Source: Negativicutes bacterium (lineage in GTDB: Bacteria > Bacillota > Negativicutes > JAGPMH01). Taken from it: DNA of 52,901 nucleotides. Positions within the stretch are counted from its first letter, which is position 1; every line of letters starts with the position of its first letter. Location: the NCBI GenBank assembly GCA_018052945.1, contig JAGPMH010000008.1, positions 1 through 52,901 of the forward strand, read 5' to 3'. Positions 40,032-46,422 of the stretch are shown piece after piece. The notes under the pieces were generated by a model. The model had not been told where the DNA came from. It worked only from the letters and a program-made list of their open reading frames with translations, and made no database searches. The position numbers and the translations under genes were made by a program.

Positions 40032-40051
40032 TATCTCTATACAAAAATTAT

Positions 40052-40088
40052 AAAAAAAAGAATCATCTCTATACCGAGACAATTCTTT
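40052..40088 (-). terminator. Terminator of spoVS
   Basis: Minus-strand stem GAATTGTCTC/GAGATGATTC with two wobble pairs around a short loop, followed by eight T (40052-40059). Confidence 0.8.
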
Positions 40089-40094
40089 AAATTT

Positions 40095-40355
40095 CTATCT
40101 TGGTTCAATTATTAACTTCATTGCCGTACGCTCTTCACCATCAATAACAATATCGGTGAAAGCTGGAATACAAATCAGATCAACACCATGAGGTGCTACA
40201 AAGCCTCTGGCTATCGCTACAGCTTTGACGGCTTGATTAAGTGCTCCTGCACCAATCGCTTGCATCTCAGCCGCACCACGTTCTCTTAATACGCCTGCTA
40301 ATGCTCCTGCAACAGAATTAGGATTTGATTTAGCTGATACCTTTAATACTTCCAT
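40095..40355 (-). CDS. spoVS: Stage V sporulation protein S (SpoVS)
   Basis: An 86-residue Alba-like small protein with the family's strongly conserved sequence (MEVLKVSAKSNPNSVAGALA..., GAGALNQAVKA, IPAFTDI). In Bacillus it affects septation, spore coat assembly and the timing of sporulation; homologues also occur in bacteria that do not sporulate. GGAGGG precedes the ATG by 11 bases. A SigH-like promoter lies at 40412-40440 and a terminator follows, so it is monocistronic. Confidence 0.95.
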   Translation of the reverse strand: MEVLKVSAKSNPNSVAGALAGVLRERGAAEMQAIGAGALNQAVKAVAIARGFVAPHGVDLICIPAFTDIVIDGEERTAMKLIIEPR

Positions 40356-40411
40356 AATTATTAGAACCCTCCTTTAATATTAAGAAAGAACCCAACTACT
40401 TACAATAAGTA

Positions 40412-40440
40412 TTATTCGACATTTGCTAAAAAATACCTTT
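40412..40440 (-). promoter_or_regulatory. SigH-like promoter of spoVS
   Basis: Minus strand AAAGGTATT (40432-40440), 11-bp spacer, GTCGAATAA (40412-40420). Against the Bacillus SigH consensus RnAGGAwWW-N11/12-RnnGAATWW, only one base differs (A to T in the -35). No good SigA match overlaps it. Bacillus subtilis spoVS is also SigH-dependent. The start codon is about 50 nt past the predicted transcription start. Confidence 0.6.
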
Positions 40441-40456
40441 GGATATTTTAAGTTTA

Positions 40457-41248
40457 TCAAATATTTTTTTCTTCTTCTTTTAGCAAAATTCGACAGATGT
40501 CAACACATTCGCCATTAGTTTCATCAACTTTTAAGACTACTGCACTAAAAACATTAGGACCTTTGGCTAAATTAAATTTTGTGGGTAAAGCTGTAATAAA
40601 TTTATTTATAATTATTTCCTTTTCTACTCCTAAAATAGAATTCCAAGGACCAACCATCCCTAAATCAGTAATATAGCCCGTACCTTTCGTTAGAATCCGC
40701 TCGTCAGCCGTTTGAATATGCGTATGCGTCCCCACTACCGCTGAAACTTTGCCATCTAAATGCCAACCCATTGCCATTTTTTCCGAAGTCGCTTCAGCAT
40801 GAAAATCAACAATAATAATATCACATAATGTTTTTATTTTAGCTAAAATTGTATCAACAACTTGAAACGGACAATCCAATGCCGGCATAAAAGTTCGTCC
40901 TGAAATATTAATTATACCGATTTTACTACTTTGATAATCATAAATACAAAAGCCTTGACCAGGCGAAGTGTGTGGATAATTTGCCGGTCTGACCAAGTAA
41001 GGTTCATCCTCAATAAATTCAAAAACATCTTTTTTATCCCAAATATGATTTCCGGTTGTTACAACATCTATTCCTAAACTATATAGTTCATCTAAAACAG
41101 GTTTGGTTATACCAACTCCCCCTGCTGAATTTTCTCCGTTAGCAATAACAAAATCAATACCATATTCTATTTTAATCTTTTCAATATATTTTTTAGTAGC
41201 TTGTCGCCCTGGCGAGCCACAAATATCACCAATAATTAATATATTCAT
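40457..41248 (-). CDS. ymdB: YmdB family metallophosphoesterase
   Basis: A 263-residue calcineurin-like phosphoesterase of the TIGR00282/YmdB type. Metal-binding motifs are IGDICGSPGR, NGENSAGG, TGNHIWDKK, DFHAEATSEK and GTHTHIQTAD. Bacillus YmdB hydrolyses cyclic AMP-type nucleotides and affects biofilm and motility gene choice. It is typically next to rny and spoVS, as here. Two Mets are possible; the second (41248) has AGAGG seven bases upstream, while the first (41254) overlaps it. Confidence 0.93.
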   Translation of the reverse strand: MNILIIGDICGSPGRQATKKYIEKIKIEYGIDFVIANGENSAGGVGITKPVLDELYSLGIDVVTTGNHIWDKKDVFEFIEDEPYLVRPANYPHTSPGQGFCIYDYQSSKIGIINISGRTFMPALDCPFQVVDTILAKIKTLCDIIIVDFHAEATSEKMAMGWHLDGKVSAVVGTHTHIQTADERILTKGTGYITDLGMVGPWNSILGVEKEIIINKFITALPTKFNLAKGPNVFSAVVLKVDETNGECVDICRILLKEEEKNI

Positions 41249-41260
41249 CTTCATACCTCT

Positions 41261-41770
41261 TTATTTATTAAAAACTATTACTTTTCCTTCTTCTCTAATA
41301 CCAATTAACCTAGTTGAAAAGTGATTTTTTTTCATAATACTAAGCATATTTTCCATAACTTCTTCTTGCAGTAAAATTTCTTCTTCTTGTAGTGCATCAT
41401 TTTTATCACAAACTAATTTTTCTTTAAAGGAATTGCTAATAATTGAGCTAATCAGTACAATTTCAGTTCGTGACAATGTTTTTATATCCCTAATAATATT
41501 AATAAAGGCTAACTCTTCATATTTTTTTATATTAATTTCGAGTTTAATATCTTTAGTTTTTTCCAAAGAATGATATGTTAAAATACTACTTTTTAATTTT
41601 TCTTCAAACATTAAAAAATCATCTTCTAATGGTACCGGCTGTAACGCTGCTCTAATTTTCAAACTATCATTTATCGGCTCAAACGTTATCGTACTAAATT
41701 CTGGGAAGCACACCAAAATAGAAATTAATAAATTAACGCCTTCATTTATTTTCTTTTCTTCCTCATTCAT
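41261..41770 (-). CDS. Protein of unknown function between rny and ymdB
   Basis: A 169-residue soluble protein that I do not recognise. It starts with a charged helix (MNEEEKKINEG), then a hydrophobic segment (VNLLISILVCFPEF) too polar overall for a clear membrane helix. A mixed helix/strand middle, an acidic Glu/Gln-rich stretch (LQEEEILLQEEV, about 130-142) and a basic C terminus follow. ATG 41770 follows GGTGGTG. It is placed 12 bp before ymdB and 64 bp after rny, beyond a terminator-like hairpin, so a link to RNA turnover or YmdB signalling is possible but unproved. Confidence 0.6.
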   Translation of the reverse strand: MNEEEKKINEGVNLLISILVCFPEFSTITFEPINDSLKIRAALQPVPLEDDFLMFEEKLKSSILTYHSLEKTKDIKLEINIKKYEELAFINIIRDIKTLSRTEIVLISSIISNSFKEKLVCDKNDALQEEEILLQEEVMENMLSIMKKNHFSTRLIGIREEGKVIVFNK

Positions 41771-41797
41771 TTTTTCACCACCCATTGTATCTTAAAT

Positions 41798-44820: not shown

Positions 44821-46406
44821 TAACGACTTTTAGCCGGTTCAACATTAATTTTATAGCCCTTCATAGTGTTTTTATGCATCACTGCTAACACTCTTTCTGC
44901 TACTTCTTCCGGAATTTCGACAAATGTAAATTTGTCATAGATATTAATAACACCAATAATATTCCCAGGAATATCAGCTTCCGAAGAAATTGCTCTAACA
45001 ATGTCTTCTGGTCTGATTTTTTGGCTACGACCGATATTCATAAATAACCTTACCATCCCTGCTTCTCCACCGGTATTACTAAAGCTATTTGTGACTACTA
45101 CTTCTTCTTCTTTTTCTTTTACCCCTTCAACGGATAATTTTAAAGCTGCTGCTGCTAAGTCATGAGCATCATAATCATTTAACAAGTCCGCAATAATAGT
45201 ATGATAGTCATCATAATTATTATTTTCTAGCACTTTTAATAAACGCTCTTTTATTAGTTCTTTTTGACGTTCTAAGATATCAGCTGAAGAAGGTAATTTT
45301 TTACGTGTAATAGCCGTTTTTGTATAACGTTCAATTAATTTTAATTGACGATACTCACGAGGATTGATAAAAGTAATCGCAACCCCTTTACGACCAGCAC
45401 GGCCAGTTCTTCCAATTCTATGAACATATGATTCATGGTCTTGTGGAATATCATAATTCACTACATGAGTAATATCATCGATATCAATCCCGCGAGCTGC
45501 CACATCAGTTGCTACTAGTATTTCCAATTTTCCTTCACGGAATTTTTTCATTACTCTATCACGTTGTGATTGACTCAAATCACCATGTAAGCCATCTGAT
45601 AAATACCCGCGTACTTGTAATGATGATACTAATTCATCAACACCTTTTTTAGTACGACAGAAAATTATAATTTTGCCGGTTTCTTCAACATCTAAAACAC
45701 GACATAAGCCTTCTAATTTTTCTCTTGTTTCATAATAAATTTGTTCAATCAATGGCACTGTTAACTTTTCTCTGTTAATAGTTACTCTTGTTGCATTCTT
45801 CATATACTTTTCTGATAACTTTGCTATTGGTCCAGGCATTGTTGCTGAAAACAATAATGTTTGTCTTGTTTCCGCATCTAAATTATTAATAATAGTCTCT
45901 ATGTCATCAACAAATCCCATGTCTAGCATTTCATCTGCTTCATCTAAAATAAGCATTTTCACTTGGTCTAATTTAATAGTTCTACGTCTAATATGATCCA
46001 ATAATCTTCCCGGAGTCCCAATAACAACTTGCACGCCTGATTTTAAGGCTTTGATTTGTCTGTCTATTGATTGGCCACCATAAATCGGCAATGATTTTAC
46101 TTTTTTAAATTTACCAATTTTAGTTATCTCTTCAGAGATTTGAATAGCAAGTTCTCTAGTCGGTGTAAGAATAAGTGCTTGAATATGCTTATTATGATCA
46201 TCAACTTTTTCAATTGCTGGAATACCAAAAGCAGCTGTTTTACCAGTTCCTGTTTGGGCTTGACCAATAACATCATTACCTGCTAATACTAATGGTATTG
46301 TTTTACTTTGTATCGGTGAAGGCTCTTCAAAGCCCATATCGCTAATAGCAGCTAGTACCTTCTTGCTTAATTCAATTTCCCCAAATGTTGTTAATTCTTT
46401 TTTCAA
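44820..46406 (-). CDS. DEAD-box ATP-dependent RNA helicase with DbpA-type RNA-binding domain
   Basis: A 528-residue DEAD-box protein. Motifs are the Q motif (GFEEPSPIQ), [27 protein letters not shown] and [10 protein letters not shown]-terminal RRM-like DbpA domain (about 450-528) with VRLFMNIGR binds RNA, suggesting ribosome assembly or mRNA decay, as for CshA/DeaD/DbpA. Which of these is the true orthologue cannot be fixed. The start is TTG (46406), nine bases after GGAGG; no ATG fits. It lies 16 bp after cinA. Confidence 0.94.
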
Positions 46407-46422
46407 ATTTTAAATCCTCCTG

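Follow-up and report, generated by a model that had tools for sequence, protein, structure and literature searches.

The window, the 52,901-nucleotide stretch of Negativicutes DNA analysed here, carries on its minus strand at positions 40440-40412 what is in all probability the SigH-dependent promoter of spoVS, a reading to which we assign a probability of roughly 0.88 on the evidence of sequence and its conservation. The site is best read as an ordinary, conserved SigH promoter that would have been retained after the loss of sporulation, its host being apparently spore-less. To the extent that sequence can show, what the first-pass annotation observed and how it read the site both stand.

Direct reading of the minus strand gives positions 40440-40412 as AAAGGTATT TTTTAGCAAAT GTCGAATAA, that is, AAAGGTATT-N11-GTCGAATAA, with the -35 element AAAGGTATT at 40432-40440, the 11-nt spacer TTTTAGCAAAT at 40421-40431, and the -10 element GTCGAATAA at 40412-40420. 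Measured against the SigH consensus RNAGGAWWW/RNNGAATWW, as printed in PMC8510167, the -35 element agrees at eight of nine positions, with AGGT in place of AGGA, the -10 element fits RNNGAATWW, and the spacing of 11 nt lies inside the 11-12 nt SigH range. The end of the site (40412) is separated by 56 nt from the spoVS ATG (40355). The first-pass annotation had described a single mismatch, correct spacing, and a location about 50 nt before the start codon, and its coordinates and spacing were exact; it gave no strand, which is minus. The "wrong" base is a natural variant, present in the spoVS promoter of Clostridioides difficile itself: AGGT occurs in the C. difficile SigH promoters of spoVS, frr, CD0148, and CD0572 (PMC7438776), and again at the spoVS locus of the class relative G016 (L020).

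The site lies in a 101-nt gap between a ymdB-type phosphoesterase gene (40457-41254, TIGR00282) and spoVS (40095-40355; 86 aa; PF04232, 131 bits against a cut-off of 24), all genes at the locus sharing one direction on the minus strand. Most spoVS loci likewise have ymdB immediately upstream. Between ymdB and rny, the window encodes a 174-aa protein (41261-41785, minus strand) with no Pfam match; in the relative G041 (L017), a fragment with a C-terminal end similar to that of this protein lies upstream of a spoVS copy. A ribosome-binding site, AAAGGAGGG, is read directly at 40367-40375 and has an identical sequence in relatives, and promoter geometry places the predicted transcription start region at 40400-40406, a few nucleotides past the -10 element. 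Behind spoVS, an intrinsic terminator with a 13-bp stem and a T tail is predicted at 40057-40088 (fold z = -4.1). The shared gene direction, the shortness of the gap, and the fact that no terminator was found within it would also suit a spoVS gene transcribed mostly by read-through from rny and ymdB, or from an unseen sigma-A promoter, with the SigH site playing a minor part. We regard this as quite unlikely, however, because no sigma-70-type promoter was found in 40050-40700 and the SigH pair persists where the remainder of the gap has diverged. Because a SigH promoter in the gap is combined with a terminator-like hairpin after spoVS, a one-gene transcript is predicted instead: polymerase loaded with the SigH that this genome encodes would recognise the -35/-10 pair in the ymdB-spoVS gap and initiate some 50 nt ahead of the ATG, yielding a short, single-gene spoVS RNA of approximately 350 nt that stops at the terminator (40088-40057).

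A match to the consensus alone is not significant, since four sites with at most one consensus mismatch were found in the window against 3.07 expected. This equality is what a chance match to a loose consensus would produce, and a perfect strict-consensus match elsewhere in the window (46392-46420, minus strand), which was not accepted as a promoter because it overlaps the ribosome-binding site and start codon of a DEAD-box helicase gene, is probably such a case. For the spoVS site, a chance origin is nevertheless very improbable, contradicted as it is by matrix score, position, and conservation across 110 loci. A SigH matrix, independent of the analysed genome, was built from 31 C. difficile promoters whose starts are mapped and whose expression depends on SigH (Table 3 of PMC7438776), their source bacterium belonging to another class than the host, and only spacers of 11 or 12 nt were scored. 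The spoVS site, at 18.85 bits, is the top-scoring site of the whole window on both strands (runner-up, 17.04 bits) and falls within the 13-22 bits of the training promoters. Simulated sequence yields an expected 0.067 sites of at least 18.8 bits per window, and by our arithmetic the chance of such a site is approximately 6e-5 per given 100 nt on one strand. Outside the locus, two SigH-matrix sites of 19.5 and 18.2 bits, one on each strand, occupy the interval that separates ilvD from a radical-SAM-like gene (L134:1470-1530).

The conservation of the site was assessed in 110 spoVS loci, comprising 30 from a genome search, the analysed genome among them, and 80 named ones drawn from Bacilli, Clostridia, and Negativicutes, by scanning the 160 nt before each ATG at a threshold of at least 13 bits. 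SigH sites reached this threshold in 75 of the 110 loci, against 2/109 for downstream stretches, 1/110 for reversed sequence, and 0/110 for the opposite strand. A search for the motif before spoVS orthologues had been proposed in the first-pass annotation, together with the idea of a regulatory link conserved across distant Bacillota, and this result bears out the former and supports the latter, the sites occurring across Bacilli, Clostridia, and Negativicutes. Within the Negativicutes set, the site is present in 31 of 34 loci; outside it, 32 of 76 loci score below 13 bits, some with weaker yet recognisable sites. The distance from the end of a good site to the spoVS ATG is 38-128 nt (median 51), and by-eye alignment reveals a constant -35/-10 pair within surroundings that mostly diverge; also kept are the ribosome-binding site and, among the closest loci, some of the leader.

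The same alignment bears on a reading in which TGTCGAA serves mainly as a Spo0A box, such that Spo0A~P would bind over the -10 element and control spoVS alone or together with SigH. The genome does encode spo0A, and TGTCGAA occurs twice upstream of spoVS, at 40421-40415, overlapping the SigH -10 element, and at 40495-40489, within the 3' end of ymdB. The second copy (40489-40495, minus strand) lies 74 nt upstream of the first. We consider this reading unlikely: of the 110 loci only 16 have TGNCGAA upstream of spoVS, and its position is not constant among them, in contrast to the conserved SigH pair; the triplet ahead of GAAT is free to vary (GCA, AAC, GGC, and others); and GTCGAAT is also a usual SigH -10 sequence in C. 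difficile (PMC7438776). A Spo0A box was therefore rejected as the conserved element of these loci.

A SigH promoter presupposes its sigma factor, and the first-pass annotation had made its reading depend on a sigH gene in the genome. One clear sigH was found (G000:C1:35304-35900, G000 being the analysed genome), scoring 375.6 bits with TIGR02859 (cut-off 294.8) and 404.8 bits with NF006148 (cut-off 208). Regions 2.4 and 4.2 of the encoded protein are nearly identical to those of G016 and G005, two class members that have SpoIVA. Genome-wide, 25 sites fit the strict SigH pattern versus one for a reversed control, and 21 of the 25 lie no more than 150 nt before an ORF start. Genes downstream include rpoD, mreB, hpf, HU, parB, a penicillin-binding protein gene, comEA, a pilB-type ATPase gene, phoH, yicC, and atpI, of which rpoD and atpI were named by direct reading. 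The rpoD-linked site falls inside the 3' end of dnaG, and opposing sites on contig C37 make target assignment there ambiguous. These predicted targets are only partly common to three asporogenous relatives, the common ones being rpoD (G010), HU and uspA (G030), and pmm (G014); the rpoD match in G030 is either a site within dnaG or a match to sigma-like sequence ahead of rpoD.

The host is probably asporogenous, and its missing marker genes are evidence for this status, not proof of it. In its 1.64 Mb genome, rated 99.8% complete, SpoIVA and SpoIIIAB were not found, the best match to SigE scored 73 bits (cut-off 348.6) and fell at the RpoD gene, and no sigma factor reached a cut-off for SigF, SigG, or SigK. 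These absences lend support to the earlier guess of a non-sporulating organism. Among the remaining sigma factors, one is of FliA/WhiG type, and for two others the general sigma-70 superfamily cut-off is the only one passed; of these two, a 212-aa protein (L033:1441-2076) adjoins outer-membrane assembly genes that are BamA- and TamB-like by eye, and a 184-aa protein (L034:1483-2034) is encoded beside an ABC-F-like gene. Sixteen genomes, the analysed one included, keep spoVS with neither SpoIVA nor SpoIIIAB. Among ten of these scanned upstream of spoVS, nine have a SigH site scoring 13 bits or more, the exception being G047, and every genome without spoVS is also without SpoIVA.

The comparison set consisted of 60 Negativicutes relatives at class level, none of them closer than that to the host. 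A sigH gene was found in 59 of the 60, the relative without a match being 84% complete, and the SigH pattern outnumbers its reversed control in 59 of the 60. The exception to the latter is again G047, with three SigH-pattern matches versus 12 reversed. Its SigH scores 273 bits, under the family cut-off, and has changed from KTATRQKHIP to KGANRQKHRP in region 2.4 and from RHV to RST in region 4.2. The G047 spoVS gene lacks a SigH site (6.6 bits) and is preceded by TGTGTTATAAT, which by eye resembles a sigma-A extended -10 element. Together, the eroded SigH and the lost spoVS site (L003, L149) are consistent with promoters and factor decaying together, in a single case.

Because it is kept, along with SigH, in an apparently spore-less bacterium, the SigH-spoVS wiring seems to serve a role other than spore formation. 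We infer that the spoVS site is in use and that SigH here would drive a growth-transition or stress programme rather than spores. As a broader hypothesis, which we hold at slightly less than even odds, SigH in asporogenous Negativicutes may be under full selection, running an ancestral growth-transition programme that predates or has outlived sporulation; on this view spoVS would belong to the cell cycle or cell shape and not to the spore, and where the factor erodes, SigH and its promoters would decay together, as in G047. Such a programme, if real, would take in rpoD, HU, cell shape, chromosome partition, ribosome hibernation, DNA uptake, and spoVS. Although SpoVS takes its name from sporulation, the SigH promoter of its gene is still present in class members in which no spore genes were found, and this offers a clean way to ask about the non-spore roles of SigH and SpoVS. 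Comparing targets in asporogenous Negativicutes with the Bacillus subtilis and C. difficile regulons could separate a growth-transition core from a spore-specific part.

The SigH-spoVS wiring is already known from relatives; a search of the open-access literature, with subscription papers outside its scope, found no article dealing with the SigH targets of Negativicutes. In Bacillus thuringiensis, the spoVS1 and spoVS2 promoters require SigH and bind it, and they resemble the present site in gene, -35/-10 consensus, and location upstream of the start codon (PMC8510167), although B. thuringiensis is a spore-former and the analysed genome is without spore-assembly genes. C. difficile spoVS (CD1935), whose expression drops to 0.03 when sigH is mutated, has the mapped promoter AAAGGTTTT-N12-ATAGAAGTA, in which AGGT likewise stands for AGGA (PMC7438776), but its spacer is 12 nt instead of 11, its -10 element is poorer, and its host sporulates. 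SigH is also known in non-sporulating Firmicutes, where it is linked to competence, and SigH-like factors kept without sporulation, as here, are described for Lactobacillus sakei, Staphylococcus, and ComX (PMC3364868). Competence is a theme shared with those factors, comEA being one of the targets predicted here. They are, however, reported to be more divergent (PMC3364868), whereas the SigH of the analysed genome stays within the B. subtilis-type family and retains the classical target spoVS.
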